A stretch of 42,994 nt of DNA from Muribaculaceae bacterium Isolate-013 (NCI) (GTDB lineage Bacteria > Bacteroidota > Bacteroidia > Bacteroidales > Muribaculaceae). The number at the start of each line of letters is the position of its first letter. Positions within the stretch are counted from its first letter, which is position 1. The position numbers and the translations under genes were made by a program. The DNA is taken from the NCBI GenBank assembly GCA_004102785.1, contig SCEJ01000024.1, positions 1 through 42,994 on the forward strand. Reading direction: 5' to 3'. The notes under the pieces are model-generated. The model saw only the letters and a program-made list of their open reading frames with translations. It was not told where the DNA came from and ran no database searches. Below, one piece after another: positions 34,798 through 42,994 of this stretch.

Positions 34798-37079
34798 AAC
34801 ACATCATCCGACTTCTGCTGTGTGCCGCGGCCATCCTGATGCTCCAGGGTTGCTCCACCACCAGGCGCATCCCCGAGGGGGAGATGCTCTACACCGGCAT
34901 CAAAAAGGTAAAAATCATCCCCCCCGCCGGCGAAAAGACCCCGGCCGGAGTGGCATCCGGCATAAACGATGCGGTGGCATATCCCCCGAACTATGCCATT
35001 TTCGGCTCATCGTCGCTTAAATTCCCGCTACCCTACGGACTCTGGGTGTGGAACAACTGGCCCAACCCCGAAAAAGGGTTCAAACACTGGATTTTCGAGA
35101 AACTCGCCACCGAGCCGGTACTCGTTTCCGACGTAAGACCCCAGCAGCGCGTGAAATCAGTCGACGACCTGCTCGACGACAACGGATATTTCCGCGGCAA
35201 AGCCTCCTATGAACTGGTGCAGGGGAAGAATCCCAAGAAAGCCGCCCTCCTCTACAAAGTGGAGACAGGTCCGGCCTACCGTCTCGACTCCATTGAGCTG
35301 CTCCCCGACACCTGCCACCTATACCACTCAATCGACTCGCTGGCTCGACTCGACCCATATCTGCGTACGGGCGAGCGCTACTGCGTCGACTCACTCTCGG
35401 CGGCGCGCACACGCATCACCAACGCCCTGCGCAACCAGGGATACTACTTCTTCCGTCCCGACTATATAGAATACCTCGCCGACTCGGTGCAGAAACCGAT
35501 GCGGATAGCCCTCCGCATGATGCTCGCGGCAAACATACCGCAGCAGATGCTCTGGCGCTACAAAACGGGCGATGTGACAGTCTATGCCTTCCGCAACCGC
35601 GGCGGAGGCACCCCCGACACCATACCCACATCGCGCGCCACACTCATCCAGATGCAGCCCTCGCGCCTGCGCAAAGAGCTGATACCCGAGTGTGTCACCT
35701 TCCGCAAAGGGCGCTACTTCTCGGTGCGGCGCATGAACTCCACCCAGACCCGCTTCGCACGCCTGGGGATTTTCAACTCAATCGACATAAACGTATTCCC
35801 CGACACGACGGCCACCGAACCCACCCTCGATGTTGAGGTATCGTGCACATTCGACACCCCCCTTGAGGCCACAATCGAGCTCAACGCCTCATCGAAGTCA
35901 AACTCCTATATCGGCCCCGGAGTGCTGCTGGGCATCACCAACCACAACCTCTTCGGCGGCGGCGAGCAGTTCGGCGTGACGCTCACCGGCAGCTACGAAT
36001 GGCAGACCGGCCGCCACGCCTCGTCGGTGTTCAACTCCTACGAAGTGGGAATCTCCACCTCGCTGGCCTTCCCGCGAATGATAGCCCCGGGATTCATACG
36101 CCGGCGCAACCGCAACCTCAACTGGACGCGGCTGCAGCTCGACGCCGACCTGCTCAACCGTCCCCACTACTTCAAGATGGCGCAGTTCAACTTCTCGTTC
36201 AATTACGACTGGCAGTCGTCGCGCCACTCCTCCCACACTCTCACCCCCTTCAAGCTCACCTACACCAAACTGATGAAAACCACCGCCGAATTCGACTCCA
36301 TCATAAACGTCAATCCGGCCATAGCGCAGTCGTTCAAGTCGCAGTTCATCCCGCAGCTCGCCTATGCCTATACCTACGACACCAGTTTCGGCCCCGACAA
36401 CACATTCAACTGGCAGCTAACCCTCCAGGAAGCGGGCAACCTCTTCTGGAGCATCTATGAGCTGGCAGGCAAAAAGGGTGAGAAGAAGCTTTTCGGCACC
36501 CCCTTCTCGCAGTTCATCAAAGGCACGACGCAGTTTATCTACGGCCGCCGCCTCAGCGGCGACCAATGGCTGGTGACGCGCGCCATGGTAGGTGCAGCCT
36601 ATGCCTACGGCAACTCGTCGGAGGTGCCCTACGCCGAGCAGTTCTACGTCGGCGGCGCCAACTCCATCCGCGCCTTCACCGTGCGTTCAATCGGCCCCGG
36701 CAGCTACAAAGCCCCCGACTGGATAAGCAACTCATACTTCGACCAGACCGGTACGTTCAAGTTCGAGTTCAACGTTGAATACCGCTTCCCCATCATCGGC
36801 CCGCTTCACGGCGCACTGTTTATCGACGCCGGCAACGTGTGGCTGCTTAAAAAAGACCCATTGCGCCCCGGCGGCGAATTGCGCGCGAAGACCTTCCTGC
36901 GCGACATTGCCCTGGGCACCGGCGCCGGCCTGCGTTTCGACATCGGTATGCTCGTGCTCCGCGGCGACCTCGGCATCGGCATCCACGCTCCCTACAACAC
37001 CGGCCACGGCGGATACTACAACATGGAATCGTTCTGGAAATCGCTCAACTTCCACCTCGCCATAGGCTACCCCTTCTGA
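34794..37079 (+). CDS. tamL: TamL: Omp85-family outer-membrane protein with lipoprotein signal
   Basis: The partner of TamB, a BamA/TamA-type 16-strand barrel. The 761-residue product differs from TamA in starting with a lipobox (MLQGC, Cys near residue 22), which defines the Bacteroidetes TamL variant. POTRA-like segments occupy about 30-330; the barrel follows, with GVLLGITNHNLFGGGEQFGV, the EQFYVGGANSIRAF motif of Omp85 L6 region (usually VRGF/Y), FKFEFNVEYRFPI, ALFIDAGNVW and a terminal strand FHLAIGYPF ending in Phe. Here the L6 arginine is present in SIRAF. It overlaps tamB by 4 bp and is followed by a terminator. It would sit in the outer membrane, possibly lipid-anchored. Confidence 0.9.
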   Translation: MKHIIRLLLCAAAILMLQGCSTTRRIPEGEMLYTGIKKVKIIPPAGEKTPAGVASGINDAVAYPPNYAIFGSSSLKFPLPYGLWVWNNWPNPEKGFKHWIFEKLATEPVLVSDVRPQQRVKSVDDLLDDNGYFRGKASYELVQGKNPKKAALLYKVETGPAYRLDSIELLPDTCHLYHSIDSLARLDPYLRTGERYCVDSLSAARTRITNALRNQGYYFFRPDYIEYLADSVQKPMRIALRMMLAANIPQQMLWRYKTGDVTVYAFRNRGGGTPDTIPTSRATLIQMQPSRLRKELIPECVTFRKGRYFSVRRMNSTQTRFARLGIFNSIDINVFPDTTATEPTLDVEVSCTFDTPLEATIELNASSKSNSYIGPGVLLGITNHNLFGGGEQFGVTLTGSYEWQTGRHASSVFNSYEVGISTSLAFPRMIAPGFIRRRNRNLNWTRLQLDADLLNRPHYFKMAQFNFSFNYDWQSSRHSSHTLTPFKLTYTKLMKTTAEFDSIINVNPAIAQSFKSQFIPQLAYAYTYDTSFGPDNTFNWQLTLQEAGNLFWSIYELAGKKGEKKLFGTPFSQFIKGTTQFIYGRRLSGDQWLVTRAMVGAAYAYGNSSEVPYAEQFYVGGANSIRAFTVRSIGPGSYKAPDWISNSYFDQTGTFKFEFNVEYRFPIIGPLHGALFIDAGNVWLLKKDPLRPGGELRAKTFLRDIALGTGAGLRFDIGMLVLRGDLGIGIHAPYNTGHGGYYNMESFWKSLNFHLAIGYPF

Positions 37080-37111
37080 TTCCGCCCGCACCGCAACTAC
37101 CTGACACCTGT

Positions 37112-37163
37112 ATATTACAAACGGGGCAATGCCGCACTTGCGGCATTGCCCCGTTTGTAATAT
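37112..37163. terminator. 24-bp perfect palindromic terminator
   Basis: Arms 37112-37135 and 37140-37163 are perfect complements with a 4-base loop ACTT, with AT-rich outer ends and a GC-rich core (ACGGGGCAATGCCGC). It lies between tamL and the convergent transporter remnant and could stop both directions. Confidence 0.88.
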
Positions 37164-37178
37164 GCAATCAGAAGCGTA

Positions 37179-37490
37179 TCAACTCATCATCAGCACAATG
37201 ACCACGCCCCAGAGAATGAGCAGGATATTGCCGACGGCATACGTCACGGTATAACCCATGGCCGGGATGGAGCTGCCGATTGCATCCTGCACGGCACCGA
37301 GCGAGGCTGTGGTGGTGCGGCTGCCGGCGCAGCATCCCAAGGTTATGGCCGCCGGGAACCTGAATATCCTGCGCCCGATTATCATGCCGAGAATAAGAGG
37401 CAGCGATGTGGCCACAACGCCCATCAGGAAAAGCACTATGCCTACATCCTTGAGACCGCTGACAAAAGAGGGACCGGCCGAAAATCTATT
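37179..37490 (-). pseudogene. C-terminal remnant of an AspT/YidE-type transporter
   Basis: The minus-strand frame reads [20 protein letters not shown], then [20 protein letters not shown] and [20 protein letters not shown], the last third of the aspartate:alanine-exchanger/YidE-YbjL family. Only about 100 residues remain of a family usually around 550. The frame meets an in-frame TGA at 37491-37493, and similarity stops at about 37480, where recombinase-like plus-strand sequence begins. Three hydrophobic segments are visible. Inference: the 5' part was lost in an island insertion or deletion. The 3' end is intact up to the terminator. Confidence 0.72.
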
Positions 37491-37497
37491 TCAGAAT

Positions 37498-37715
37498 ATT
37501 GCTGTCCGGTAAAACTTTGACATGATAGGAAATGGACTATTTTTATCTCATACAGCATGAAACAGACTCGTATAGATGTCTTTTAAGGGCTTTTTGATGC
37601 TTAATGCTACCAATTTCACATCGCCTCAAATGACAAGCCCTTTTTCGTAAAACAGGTGTAACTTATTATATTTGTAGAGAATATATGATTTTGTCTTTTT
37701 TTACCGGACAGCAAT
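37498..37715. mobile_element. 218-bp MITE-like element with 17-bp terminal inverted repeats
   Basis: The left end ATTGCTGTCCGGTAAAA (37498-37514) and right end TTTTACCGGACAGCAAT (37699-37715) are perfect inverted repeats. Identical 10-bp direct repeats ATTTCAGAAT flank it (37488-37497 and 37717-37726, one base beyond the right end), as expected of a target-site duplication. The interior is AT-rich and codes for nothing recognisable; it contains TATATTTG (37667-37674), which resembles a -7 box reading outward to the right. Ends plus a 10-bp duplication would suit an internally deleted IS4-group element, but the family is inference. It interrupts the recombinase remnant near its YF-x-x-FK motif. 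Confidence 0.75.
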
Positions 37716-37724
37716 AATTTCAGA

Positions 37725-38312
37725 ATGTTCAAACGCATGGTCACGGCTGCCGTTGACAAAGACCTCATCAAGAAAAATCCGTGTCGCGGGTTTGTGCTGA
37801 AAAACGACAACATGACACTGCAAAAGGTGATTCTTCTGCGGGAGGAAATACAGCAGCTTGTGGCTACACATTTTGAAGGCGAAAAGGGAGATATTCACCA
37901 AGCCTTCATCTTTGGTCTATATACCGGGGTGCGCTGGTGTGATACAAGCCAGCTCACATATCGCAATGTCGATTACACCACAAAGACGCTACGTTTCCAA
38001 CAGCAAAAGACGAAAGACCATAGTAGTCGTAGCTGGGTAATCGTCCCGCTGAATGACACCCTTATCCGTCTGATTGGCGAGCCGAGCGATGATGACTTTG
38101 ATGAACGTATATTCAAGCTGCCGCATTACAATATCTGCAACCTGTATCTTCGGAAATGGATAAAGGAGGCTGGCATCAAGAAGAAAATCACATGGCACTG
38201 CGCCCGGCATAGCTTTGCAGTAAATGTTCTCACCAAAGGTGCGAACATCAAAACGGTGTCGAGTCTGCTCGGACACACCTCCATAAAGATGACGGAGAGA
38301 ATGACCGAGTAA
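37725..38312 (+). pseudogene. Tyrosine recombinase/integrase remnant lacking the catalytic tyrosine
   Basis: The 195-residue frame covers the end of the core-binding domain (MFKRMVTAAVDKDLIKKNPC) and the catalytic domain of a Bacteroidetes phage-type integrase. Catalytic residues Arg70 (YTGVRWCD), His158 and Arg161 (HCARHSFA) and His184 (LLGHTS) are present. The nucleophile, nine residues after His184 in the family, is Met193 (TERMTE), and a stop follows two codons later. The N-terminal SAM-like domain is missing: upstream sequence is the MITE and then the transporter remnant, with only a trace of homology (Y-F-R) left of the MITE. It should be inactive. It probably marks the end of a former integrative element. 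Confidence 0.85.
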
Positions 38313-38348
38313 TTGAATGGCTGATTAGCCTGTATGCCATTTTACTTA

Positions 38349-39452
38349 TTAGTCATACGACACTTCGTCATAAGTATCTATGACGTTCTGCAATTCAGCC
38401 TCGGAAGGGAGCAACTTTGCAGCTTTCTCTGAAATGAACTCTTTAAGCTGATACTCGGCAACTCCGAGTGGCTGATTCATTCCTCGGAATGACCATTCGA
38501 CAACAGTATCATCTTTCGATTTACAAATCAGTAATCCTATTGTCGGATTATCATCAGGCTGTTTCATCAGTTCATCCACCGCCGAAACATAGAAATTCAG
38601 TTTTCCTGCAAAATCTGGAATGAACGGTACTACCTTCAACTCGCACACGATATATGATTTGAGCCTAGTGTGATAGAATATCATATCGGGAATGAATGTC
38701 TGTCCTCCAGGCATCTTCAATTCCATCTGACGACCCACATATGCGAACCCCTGCCCCAATTCAAGAAGGAATCGGGTGATGTTGGTCGCAAGCTCATCCT
38801 CCAACTGTTTTTCAGTGGTAATCTTCTTGTCGATAAACCTGAAATCGTAAGGACTTTTCAATATAGCCTTTGCGAGACCGCTATATGGAGCGGGCAACTT
38901 TTCATCGAAGTTGGTGATGGCGTGACCTTGTTTCTCATATAGGTTGTCATCTATCTCTGCATCAAGTTCAGGACGGCTCCAATCATTTCTTATCGTTTCA
39001 TCGATATAGAAAAGAGCCTCCTCAACCGACTTGCTGCGAGTAAAGATATCTATGTGATGTCCCCACGGAACCATGCCAAAATCCGTAGGCATCTCAAATT
39101 CGTCAACGAGTCGTTGACGAATTACATTCTGTTGATTATAAAACTCATACCAACGCTTAGCATACTTAATATTGGTGACGGAAAAGCCTGTCTGACCGGG
39201 AAAGGCCGTCTTGAGGTCAAGACTGAGGCAATCGAAGAATGCGCTTCCCCATTTGGCTGCCCCATGAAGTCTTGAAATATCCCGCCCCATGTACCAATAA
39301 TATTCCAGCATGGATGTGTTGACTTTAACCGCAGCCTTTATCTGTGACCTACGGAAACGCTCTTTCAACGTGCTTAAAAGTTGCGCATACTCTTTGCCCG
39401 CAATAATGGTATCACGTTTCACAAACGCCGGTTTATTGTCTGCCTTTGCCAT
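38349..39452 (-). CDS. YhcG/DUF1016 family PDDEXK nuclease
   Basis: The 367-residue protein has the DUF1016 N-terminal domain (about 20-165; SMLEYYWYMGRDISRL, NIKYAKRWYEFY) and a C-terminal PD-(D/E)xK nuclease domain (about 190-345). The catalytic signature reads IPDMIFYH with Asp256 and VCELKV with Glu271 and Lys273. Such proteins are frequent in defence islands, often next to Type I restriction genes; their role is not settled. No signal peptide is present. It lies 174 bp downstream of the single-chain methyltransferase/specificity gene on the same strand, apparently with its own promoter. All catalytic residues are present, so activity is plausible. Confidence 0.9.
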   Translation of the reverse strand: MAKADNKPAFVKRDTIIAGKEYAQLLSTLKERFRRSQIKAAVKVNTSMLEYYWYMGRDISRLHGAAKWGSAFFDCLSLDLKTAFPGQTGFSVTNIKYAKRWYEFYNQQNVIRQRLVDEFEMPTDFGMVPWGHHIDIFTRSKSVEEALFYIDETIRNDWSRPELDAEIDDNLYEKQGHAITNFDEKLPAPYSGLAKAILKSPYDFRFIDKKITTEKQLEDELATNITRFLLELGQGFAYVGRQMELKMPGGQTFIPDMIFYHTRLKSYIVCELKVVPFIPDFAGKLNFYVSAVDELMKQPDDNPTIGLLICKSKDDTVVEWSFRGMNQPLGVAEYQLKEFISEKAAKLLPSEAELQNVIDTYDEVSYD

Positions 39453-39579
39453 GACTTTAATTTGTATTGGTTAATATTATCAGAATGCAAATCGATTCAT
39501 AATGGCTTGGCCTTCTGTGTCATGAATACGCTCAAATAATATTCACAATTAGATGAAACGATGGACTGCATATTAAATT

Positions 39580-39607
39580 CAAAATTAAATCTAAAAATTG
39601 ACAGCAA
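39580..39607 (-). promoter_or_regulatory. Possible promoter for the YhcG-type nuclease gene
   Basis: On the minus strand TTG (39605-39607) precedes TAATTTTG (39580-39587) by 17 bases. The spacing is slightly short, and the surrounding sequence is AT-rich, so chance matches are likely. Confidence 0.35.
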
Positions 39608-39626
39608 CTTAACACTTCTAAAATAT

Positions 39627-42600
39627 CTATTTTAGATATTTATCAAGAATGGCTTGTTTCTTAGACGGAATCTGTTCCTGTATACCCCGAAGCTTTGCAA
39701 TTTTAGTATCAATAGCTATAAACTCGGATGCGATTTTTCGCTGTTCCTCTATGTCTTTTGGTAAGACAATCTCAAATTTTTCAATTGTATCTTTACGACC
39801 GCGAGGCATCTTCATACCGGAAACATCCTGCATGATATAGTCGAAAAACTCGTTCCGGCGGAGAGCGTAATACACAAATGCTGAATCAACCTTTTGTGGA
39901 TTGAGATTGTGTAGAACTAAGACATCAGGGTTGCATCCGCCCTCTCTATCGGCAAGCCAAAGTTTCTTAAGGTAGGGTCTAATATTTGACAATAATATAT
40001 CCCCCGGATAATAGGCTATCACGTTTGTGATTTCAGGCAAACCATTATACTGTCTTACACCTGCACATTCTGGAAGCATGTTATCCGTACTCACAAATGA
40101 GTCCGCTTCAATTTGAGAATATGGAATTCTCTTCTTGGCGAAAGGCATTATTCCTGCCAAAGATATGTTATTCCCTTTAATGTTGTTCTGCAATGAAAGT
40201 ATCCTTGCGTTCAATTCTTGTATTTCATCTTCAATTATACGGTATTCCCTATCTAATTGAGAACATTCTTTCACAATTTTGTTCTGGATTGCCGTGTTTG
40301 GTTTAGGGATGAAATAGTTTTTCAGATATTTAAAATGACGTTCATATTTCCCGTGATTAATTATATCAAGGGAACTTAGGTAAAAATACAAATATTTGAG
40401 CGAAATAGAAGAATCTGAAATTTTTATAAGTTGGGTTCCATCAGCTCCTCTTACAAAAGGCTCATCCAAATATTTAAAGGTGCATGAGTGATCGCCGAAT
40501 ACAATCAATGGCACATCTGTGATTGGTTTATCATCATAATATCCTGACACCACGATACCTTTTTCTTGGGTAATGACCGGATACCTGCCTGTTTCCTGAA
40601 TCTTATTCGTGTCGATTTTTGTGGTTTCGCCATTAATTCCATCTAAAATATCACCTAATTTTACGATTGGATACTTTGTTTTCGGTCTGAATGAGAAAGC
40701 AAAGTTGGTTTTGAATTCCTTCTTAAACCCTACGGACTTGAAGTCAAGCATATCCACTAAATTCCCAAAAGTGCAATACTCTCCGCAATCATCAGGGATA
40801 ATATAATCCTCCCCTATAAAATTACAGCGAATCAGCGAATTGATTTTATTTGTATCCGTGAGATTCTCAGGGTTAAAGAGAGGTGTTACAATACCGTTAA
40901 TACCTCGAATCTGCTGCATTGTGTCATCGTCAGCCTCATTATCCGAATTATTATCATCGGTTGAATTTGTGGATGTGCCAATATGCAGGTATTTAATTCC
41001 TTCATTTCCTTTTGTATTACTCCATTCATATCCAAGGAATCTTTTTCCTTCAGATGTACCTGAGGGCATCTTTACGATAAGTACAGGACAAGGAGCATTA
41101 TAGGCCAACATGAAAAAGAACAATTTATCTTGTTCGATGGCTTTTACAAAAGAATGAAATGTCTCACGTCTGATTTTATCCTGTTCTTCTGCCGTCTTGT
41201 TTTTGAATGCCTTTGATTTCTCCTGTGATTTGAAACGGGTGCGGATTTTCTTAGCTGCTTCAAGTACGCCCGACATTGCATTTCTACCGTTACCGAAGAA
41301 AGCACGATGGTACGACTTAAACATTTCAGTATACTGGAGGGAGTCCTCTATATAGCCTTTTAAAAAGTGCATGTAGTCATCCACATTGTATCCCATATGA
41401 CAGCAATAGGCCGCGAGTAAATGGGAATCTTTATAAATAGAATCGGATTCAGCCCGTCCGCTGAACCAATCTTCCACTCGGCACCAATAATGCTCGGATT
41501 CGGATGTATTGGTTTCCTTGCGACGAAGGAACAGCACAACTGTATTCGTACTAGTTTTCCCAAATGTGCCTTTATCAAACTTCACCAAAGATATCAAATC
41601 AAACGATTTAAGAATAACCTCTCGTGCACGACTATAAATTCCATCTTTAGTGAGCACTGATACGGGCAATACAATACCTGCTACCCCGCCAGATTTCAGT
41701 AGTTGTGCAGCACGCTCAATGAAGAATGTCTCGATGGCGTTGTTCTTATCAACATTTATGTCATCGTTGAAAATTGAATAACGTTTGCGTTGTTTCTCCG
41801 ACAAAGTTTCTAAGAATCCTGAAACCGAATATGGCGGATTCGCAACAAGGACACTAAACGTGCCATCTCTTAGTTCTTTGATTTCGTCAAGTGCATCCGC
41901 ATATATAATGTTTGTATCATCATGTCCATACATAAACGCAGATACTTTGGAAACTTTTGATAGACGGTATTCCTTTTCGATGCCGTATATATTGGCATAA
42001 TAATCTTTCAGCCTACTATTTCCGTAATATTTCTCTACAAATTCTTTGATACGAAAGGCGTATTCAGTAAGGAAATGGCCTGCTCCACAAGCATAATCTA
42101 TGGCTAATGGTGGCTCCTGACTGTTCTTGATAATGTCTTCAAGAGGCAAAGAAGAAACAATGAAACGGACAATCGGCATCGGAGTGAAGAACTGTCCTTC
42201 ACTTTGTTTTACACCCTTGTTAAGAAAACCCTCAAACAGGTCTCCAAGAAGCTGGTTTTGGTAGTTCTCACTTGTGCGAAGGCGTATGTCTTGGAGCATT
42301 TTCACAATCTTTCGCAATACAATGGCATTCTGCTTGAACAACCTTTCGTTATGCACACTGATAAAAGCAAAATCGTTGTCAGAAAAGAACTTCAACGCGC
42401 GGAAATATTCTTTGATTGTCTTTTTGGTAGCATCAAGGTCATTTACCACCCATCGGAATGCTTTATCAATTTCGCTATTCTCAATATATGTCACATCCTC
42501 TCCAAGGAATTTCTTCATACCGTCACGATAGAGCCTTTGCAAACGGTCCTGAAGAGAGAAATCATCATCATAAGAAGTGCCTTTCCAATAGAAATGTAAG

Positions 42601-42994
42601 TCATTTGGATTGTTGGTCTCGTCAACTACTTTCGCTAAAAACAGATTGACAAGTTTATCAAATGCGTTCTCATGGCTACCAACATTGTGTTGACGCAAGA
42701 TAACGGCAAATTCATTATACTTTTTCTTAATTTCTTCGGAGTCAACTTCCCTTAAATCACTGCTTGCATCGTAAGAATTTTCTCTGACATCAAATTTTTT
42801 GTCAAAAGCACCTCGCGTTAAATAATCATATTCATAAGTGTCTTTCCAAACATTGAAATATTCCCGGTAAGTATGTTTTATTAAAGAATTAATGCAATGA
42901 AATCCATTTTCAAACGTTATTGTCTTACATATACTTATCTCTCCAATTATGTCAAGACAAGCAACGAAGATAAATATAAGCGAGGAGCAACGAA
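39627..42994 (-). CDS. Single-chain Type I-like N6-adenine methyltransferase/specificity protein, 5' end outside window
   Basis: The frame is open from the TAG at 39627 to the window edge, giving at least 1121 residues without the true start; a TTG at 42696-42698 is in frame but 98 well-formed codons precede it. HsdM-like part: NAFDKLVNLFLAKVVDE, GQFFTPMPIVRFIV, SAM motif I DYACGAGHFL, and catalytic motif IV NPPYSVSG (41829-41840). The C-terminal third is HsdS-like, with two target-recognition domains (starting PIVKLGDILDG and AGIMPFAKKRIPY), each followed by a coiled-coil-like helix (ECSQLDREYRIIEDEIQELN; EEQRKIASEFIAIDTKIAK). The region upstream of the TTG (EYFNVWKDTYEYDYLTRGAF) suggests a further N-terminal domain. 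No helicase motifs were seen. An AT-rich 9-bp hairpin overlaps the stop. Confidence 0.88.
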   Translation of the reverse strand, partial: RCSSLIFIFVACLDIIGEISICKTITFENGFHCINSLIKHTYREYFNVWKDTYEYDYLTRGAFDKKFDVRENSYDASSDLREVDSEEIKKKYNEFAVILRQHNVGSHENAFDKLVNLFLAKVVDETNNPNDLHFYWKGTSYDDDFSLQDRLQRLYRDGMKKFLGEDVTYIENSEIDKAFRWVVNDLDATKKTIKEYFRALKFFSDNDFAFISVHNERLFKQNAIVLRKIVKMLQDIRLRTSENYQNQLLGDLFEGFLNKGVKQSEGQFFTPMPIVRFIVSSLPLEDIIKNSQEPPLAIDYACGAGHFLTEYAFRIKEFVEKYYGNSRLKDYYANIYGIEKEYRLSKVSKVSAFMYGHDDTNIIYADALDEIKELRDGTFSVLVANPPYSVSGFLETLSEKQRKRYSIFNDDINVDKNNAIETFFIERAAQLLKSGGVAGIVLPVSVLTKDGIYSRAREVILKSFDLISLVKFDKGTFGKTSTNTVVLFLRRKETNTSESEHYWCRVEDWFSGRAESDSIYKDSHLLAAYCCHMGYNVDDYMHFLKGYIEDSLQYTEMFKSYHRAFFGNGRNAMSGVLEAAKKIRTRFKSQEKSKAFKNKTAEEQDKIRRETFHSFVKAIEQDKLFFFMLAYNAPCPVLIVKMPSGTSEGKRFLGYEWSNTKGNEGIKYLHIGTSTNSTDDNNSDNEADDDTMQQIRGINGIVTPLFNPENLTDTNKINSLIRCNFIGEDYIIPDDCGEYCTFGNLVDMLDFKSVGFKKEFKTNFAFSFRPKTKYPIVKLGDILDGINGETTKIDTNKIQETGRYPVITQEKGIVVSGYYDDKPITDVPLIVFGDHSCTFKYLDEPFVRGADGTQLIKISDSSISLKYLYFYLSSLDIINHGKYERHFKYLKNYFIPKPNTAIQNKIVKECSQLDREYRIIEDEIQELNARILSLQNNIKGNNISLAGIMPFAKKRIPYSQIEADSFVSTDNMLPECAGVRQYNGLPEITNVIAYYPGDILLSNIRPYLKKLWLADREGGCNPDVLVLHNLNPQKVDSAFVYYALRRNEFFDYIMQDVSGMKMPRGRKDTIEKFEIVLPKDIEEQRKIASEFIAIDTKIAKLRGIQEQIPSKKQAILDKYLK

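Follow-up and report, generated by a model that had tools for sequence, protein, structure and literature searches.

A reading frame that runs off the end of a draft contig raised the question of whether a DNA methyltransferase and a specificity module fused in one chain also carried a nuclease of their own. The window analysed here corresponds to contig C149 over its full length (42994 bp), from a 3.3-Mb draft genome assembled into 385 contigs. Its minus-strand frame 39627-42992 encodes 1121 aa and is open to the contig end, and it cannot be extended past 42994 in the assembly because the contig stops there. The first listed start of this frame is a TTG that would give a protein of 1023 aa, and the initial annotation assigned the 98 residues upstream of it to a further domain which, if it were a PDDEXK nuclease, would make the protein a Type IIG-like single-chain restriction system. 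The answer to the nuclease question is yes for the family and, most likely, for the ancestral gene before it was broken, but no for this contig. We conclude, with a probability of about 0.92, that the frame encodes the C-terminal portion of an AloI/TstI-like single-chain R-M-S enzyme, which an IS630-type element has split from a nuclease half that lies on contig C242 of the same genome.

Fused methyltransferase and specificity domains

The fusion of M and S functions in one chain, with a full two-TRD specificity module, was borne out by profile searches. The Pfam model N6_Mtase matched residues 246-495 of the frame (E 3.6e-28), placing the N6-adenine methyltransferase domain at 41508..42257 on the minus strand. 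The motifs ACGAG and NPPY read in the initial annotation were both present, and every row of a 7-row alignment had NPPY as well as the D, A and G of ACGAG. Within the same 1121-aa frame, Pfam Methylase_S matched in two stretches, the best at residues 776-928, and the Type I specificity profiles (PADLOC Specificity_I) matched residues 778-928 and 946-1116, corresponding to a first target-recognition domain at 40209..40667 and a second at 39645..40157, both on the minus strand. RM.BsaXI was the best solved match to the M-S part, with E 8.9e-26 for the single sequence and E 2.5e-65 for the profile, and was likewise the best PDB sequence match for the methyltransferase domain.

The PADLOC profile PDLC03624 (REase_MTase_IIG) aligned residues 42-1121 of the frame to its positions 195-1270 of 1271 with an E-value printed as 0, and an uninterrupted frame of 1121 residues with such a match cannot be attributed to chance. 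From this profile and an alignment with relatives, we placed the methylation-specificity part of a single-chain Type IIG/IIB enzyme at 39627..42869 on the minus strand, containing a connector, the N6-adenine methyltransferase and the two TRDs, without the N-terminal nuclease. M and S share one open frame and are not the separate HsdM and HsdS proteins of a classical Type I system; no separate motor-domain HsdR was found nearby, there being no other frame longer than 367 aa from 37100 to the contig end. An N6-adenine methyltransferase core with two C-terminally fused TRDs agrees with single-chain Type IIG/IIB enzymes, and the nuclease, which is part of the one chain in the relatives, is here a separate piece on C242, the chain being broken by the element. 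An Rfam scan of 36800-42994 returned no family at its gathering score, and a plasmid search added little, its 853 records all having <60% identity and none covering 80% of the query.

An insertion sequence at the contig end

The length of the 98-residue upstream extension was correct, but its interpretation as a domain of the protein was rejected, as residues 1-41 of the frame are insertion sequence DNA read antisense to the transposase of the element. The chain of the gene itself starts at residue 42, at position 195 of the family profile. The final 127 bp of the window (42868..42994), the end of the element that interrupts the gene, matched 16 places in the genome, and the opposite end of the element was found at 14 places, all of these being contig ends, as judged from the fetched loci, each of which had flanking sequence on just one side. 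Such a pattern would be expected for repeats no shorter than the assembler overlap, so that the identity among the element ends is partly built in.

Both element ends are present ∼1.14 kb apart at L115, a locus from a different genome of the same family, with 95.3% identity to the ends in this genome over 127 bp for the window end and 90.4% over 114 bp for the other end. The transposase pieces of the L115 element matched HTH_29 and DDE_3, and the element was named from these pieces because the L115 copy is frameshifted. IS630 elements have a preference for TA, and a TA was found beside inverted ends at both junctions, in the window and on C242. Given the HTH and DDE_3 transposase, the TA at both junctions and the inverted ends, we take the interrupting element to be of the IS630 type. 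In the window copy, which lies on the plus strand, the transposase ATG is at 42949, leaving 15 codons to the contig end that read MSRQATKINISEEQR. A switch cassette made for this gene was also considered and rejected, as the element ends, 14 left and 16 right, differed from one another in the flanks printed for them. A reading frame left open at the edge of a contig may, as here, include a mobile element.

The nuclease half on a second contig

Using PDLC03624, we searched the genome and obtained three matches, namely the window, C242:31059-31667 and a weak one on contig C337 (E 0.0015); this search revealed no unbroken copy of the gene anywhere in the assembly. The C242 match covers profile positions 1-196 (E 7.4e-54), and the frame located there, 205 aa long from its ATG, matches positions 1-194 (E 7.3e-55) and ends at a stop codon that the opposite element end supplies with its first bases (L025 7675-7677). 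While the window runs into the element end seen at 16 contig ends, C242 runs into the opposite end seen at 14, and the two pieces together span profile positions 1-1270 of 1271.

In pairwise comparisons with five relatives, the C242 piece aligned up to their residues 171-201, and the window piece resumed at residues 204-216 in three of the five; in the other two, its best segment started at 161 and 170, running into the insertion sequence residues. For the relative with the highest identity among the five, residues 1-182 of the N-terminal piece corresponded to residues 3-185 and residue 43 of the C-terminal piece to residue 210, where the remaining 23 residues of the N-terminal piece about bridge the gap from 185 to 210. 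Judging from these alignments, nothing sizeable seems to have been lost between the two pieces. C242 and C149 are unjoined in the assembly and are linked by the matching halves and the matching element ends, from which we infer that the two halves were one gene and flank one insertion; an exchange involving different copies of the element could also have separated them.

The weak third match was set aside, since M and specificity functions are encoded there by two distinct, adjacent genes. This locus on C337 (L030:1380-3993) contains an M gene of 518 aa, with best matches to Type IIG and Type I methyltransferases, and an adjoining specificity gene of 356 aa with Type II specificity matches. 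No nuclease-only profile matched any of the four frames scanned there at E <= 1e-10.

The nuclease domain

The 205-aa piece on C242 is a PD-(D/E)XK nuclease domain, and the N-terminal nuclease considered in the initial annotation lies in the genome on C242 and not in the visible extension. The HSDR_N models named there for this part stayed below their curated cut-offs against the C242 piece (Pfam HSDR_N_2 E 0.0038, HSDR_N E 0.045), and the piece alone had no meaningful match in the PDB (best E 0.97). We then aligned it with family members in 24 rows, in which E91, D106, E121, C122 and K123 were invariant. L092 was dropped from this alignment for a stop codon in its stretch, and L007, L087, L088, L090, L101, L112, L120, L130 and L132 were also absent from it; all of these, L092 included, were read in the survey of 36 family places described below. 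Among the 33 family loci with a match to the N-terminal piece, E91, D106 and K123 were kept in all 33 and E121 in 32, being replaced by D in L088.

The 24-row profile had a single match in the PDB at E up to 10, which was RM.BsaXI at residues 6-164 (E 2.6e-15). Counted along the printed profile alignment, the positions of E91, D106, E121 and K123 fall on E73, D90, E105 and K107 of BsaXI. Mutation of these four endonuclease-domain residues is described as having abolished BsaXI cleavage, as did changing two residues of its paddle region (PMC11997821). The C242 piece retains the four residues equivalent to those nuclease-domain residues essential for cleavage.

A structure predicted for the nuclease domain of the relative L117 from an 11-row alignment (mean pLDDT 85.6, pTM 0.84) had helices at 64-78, 125-137 and 139-147 and strands at 86-92, 101-108, 114-120 and 153-162. 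The PD-(D/E)XK core has this order of strands and helices, and the predicted model thus fits that fold.

Relatives and their distribution

Uninterrupted single-chain relatives of 1256-1357 aa were found at five other places, and a further one of 1324 aa on a contig of a viral collection. Of 393 genomes sampled from the order, 21 had a match at E <= 1e-100, one of them the genome studied here and the other 20 belonging to other families. The family to which the window belongs is represented by an uninterrupted member of 1256 aa in genome G024, and within the genus, from which 13 relatives were present among 148 genomes, matches were confined to G008, none of them better than E 1.4e-10. This seemingly patchy distribution would suit a gene that is transferred horizontally.

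We collected 36 distinct places with a clear family member, leaving out two weak methyltransferase-only matches (L133 and L134); three of the places (L129, L130 and L132) were indistinguishable in their match figures and may represent a single sequence. A match to the N-terminal piece was located beside the M part in 33 of the 36, and was not shown in L108, L109 and L110, where the sequence starts or ends within ∼900 bp on at least one side.

Several observations were made along with this survey. A family member in G095:C23 (L092/L106) has an in-frame stop in its nuclease stretch, reflecting either a broken copy or a sequencing error. Twelve of the clear family places (L117-L123 and L128-L132) were on viral-collection contigs; the enzyme may travel on prophages, or these contigs may hold host DNA. 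A 128-aa frame at L002:5240-5626, named by eye as helix-turn-helix-like, overlaps the start of the gene of a relative and is possibly a controller protein.

Neighbouring genes and elements

On the side of the window downstream of the M-S frame, a 195-aa frame at 37725..38312 on the plus strand encodes a tyrosine-integrase C-terminal domain (Pfam Phage_integrase, E 3.7e-17). The 5' part of this integrase gene seems to be missing, with a small element and a transporter fragment located directly upstream. The small element (37497..37716) is 220 bp long, has 18-bp perfect inverted ends and an identical second copy on C307, and is flanked on both sides by the 9-bp direct repeat ATTTCAGAA. The transporter fragment (37149..37483, minus strand) is a 335-bp copy, 97.3% identical by blastn, of the 3' end of a gene for an Asp-Al_Ex transporter (Pfam Asp-Al_Ex), and the full transporter gene lies directly upstream of the nuclease piece on C242, where the 335-bp counterpart is at L025:6084-6418. 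Both pieces of the enzyme gene may thus come from one integrated island flanked by a duplicated transporter end. An empty integration site was not shown in the seven same-genus genomes with both the transporter and the outer-membrane protein gene matched (six clear transporter matches and one weak, of 13 relatives), where the two genes are on different contigs, and the neighbours differed in the seven stretches examined.

An inverted repeat of 28 nt with 96% complementarity and 2 nt between its arms was also observed at 37109-37166. It may be a bidirectional terminator separating the gene for the outer-membrane protein from the transporter fragment.

Alternative explanations

A YhcG-type PD-(D/E)XK protein, whole at 367 aa (38349..39452, minus strand; YhcG_C E 3.7e-48, DUF1016_N E 5.1e-33, PDC-S02), lies directly downstream of the M-S frame and was considered in the initial annotation as a partner for restriction. 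Its position would suit a natural M-S fusion that never had a nuclease of its own and obtained cleavage from a separate partner, either YhcG or a Type I HsdR encoded elsewhere. However, none of the 36 loci with a clear family member contained a YhcG relative in a search that recovered YhcG in the window as a positive control, with flanks of at least 1 kb on both sides in 20 of the loci and on at least one side in 32, so that a partner located farther away could be missed; these flanks were measured from the aligned part and may include unaligned parts of the gene. The protein was also sought in 56 fetched loci. YhcG is a neighbour and not a conserved partner. A fusion dependent on a separate partner is further and largely contradicted by the nuclease half of the same family that complements the window piece in this genome, and by the presence of the nuclease half beside the M part in nearly all of the surveyed family loci; we consider it scarcely credible.

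Two other explanations are compatible with the split of a single-chain enzyme by the element. One of these, that the M-S half works as a stand-alone methyltransferase-specificity protein started in the element or internally, with restriction lost, is favoured by the uninterrupted frame, methyltransferase motifs and TRD stretches of this half, but we regard it as unlikely. Neither an ATG nor a GTG is located near the start of the half, the earliest of ATG, GTG and TTG being a TTG 57 residues into the part that belongs to the gene, and the partial loss of the connector may cost activity because connector residues in BsaXI are described as holding the flipped methylated base (PMC11997821). A more specific form, in which the M-S half alone would be a two-TRD methyltransferase started within the element and the free nuclease domain would be made separately, with restriction switched off and methylation persisting, seems very improbable. 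If it is true that the M-S half methylates, the locus would be a natural test of whether methylation survives nuclease loss in single-chain Type IIB enzymes. The other is a mixed population with an uninterrupted gene in some cells and the insertion in others, where restriction would be switched by gain and loss of the element. The absence of internal stops from the M-S half would fit a recent or reversible break, and the element is multicopy; on the other hand, no unsplit copy turned up in the assembly search, and the element ends (14 left, 16 right) have differing flanks, with nothing marking this site as special. We regard such a population as improbable.

The proposed enzyme and comparison with known systems

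With both pieces added, the ancestral enzyme would have been roughly 1,280 aa long and of Type IIB, which is a subset of Type IIG. Its chain would have run from a PD-(D/E)XK nuclease through a helical connector and an N6-adenine methyltransferase to two target-recognition domains, predicted to recognise a bipartite site. If the enzyme acted like TstI, it would probably have methylated this site and, where the site was unmethylated, cut on both sides of it. The IS630-type element would then have landed between the nuclease domain and the connector and broken the gene, leaving a nuclease half that terminates early on C242, where the element end supplies the stop codon, and an M-S half that begins inside the element at the window end. 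A gene broken by a frameshift was named in the initial annotation as a finding that would count against its reading; the gene is in substance broken, although by a mobile element and not by a frameshift. Restriction by the enzyme as a whole has most likely been lost.

This is a known kind of enzyme, of which the present gene is one more member and a broken copy. AloI-type enzymes are described as having ∼1250 aa and two TRDs (PMC3874165), and TstI as a single-chain enzyme of 1251 aa that is tetrameric (PMC4027205). The gene studied here resembles both in joining nuclease, methyltransferase and two-part recognition in one chain (PMC4027205, PMC3874165) and differs from them in being interrupted by an insertion sequence, where the closeness to AloI and TstI is one of architecture, size and published descriptions and not of compared sequences. 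In the models presented in PMC11997821, the single-RMS-chain Type IIB enzymes, all but one, have TRD1-CR1-TRD2-CR2 at the C-terminus.

Among solved structures, BsaXI (PDB 8w0p) gave the best sequence match to the methyltransferase as well as to the nuclease profile. It shares the four catalytic positions of the nuclease domain and has the same order of nuclease, helical connector and methyltransferase, as far as described in PMC11997821; unlike in the present gene, where the S part is fused, that of BsaXI is a separate protein. Since residues 1-192 of BsaXI are assigned there to the nuclease and 193-348 to the helical connector (PMC11997821), the element lies near the nuclease/connector boundary, and the chain differs from the PDLC03624 profile in being split by the element at about profile position 194/195. 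A comparable event is described for a Type IIG methyltransferase of E. coli O111:H-, where an insertion sequence is held to inactivate the enzyme (PMC6602927). While its authors inferred a loss of transcription and presented methylome data (PMC6602927), here the coding frame itself is split, a further instance of a restriction enzyme gene disrupted by an insertion sequence.
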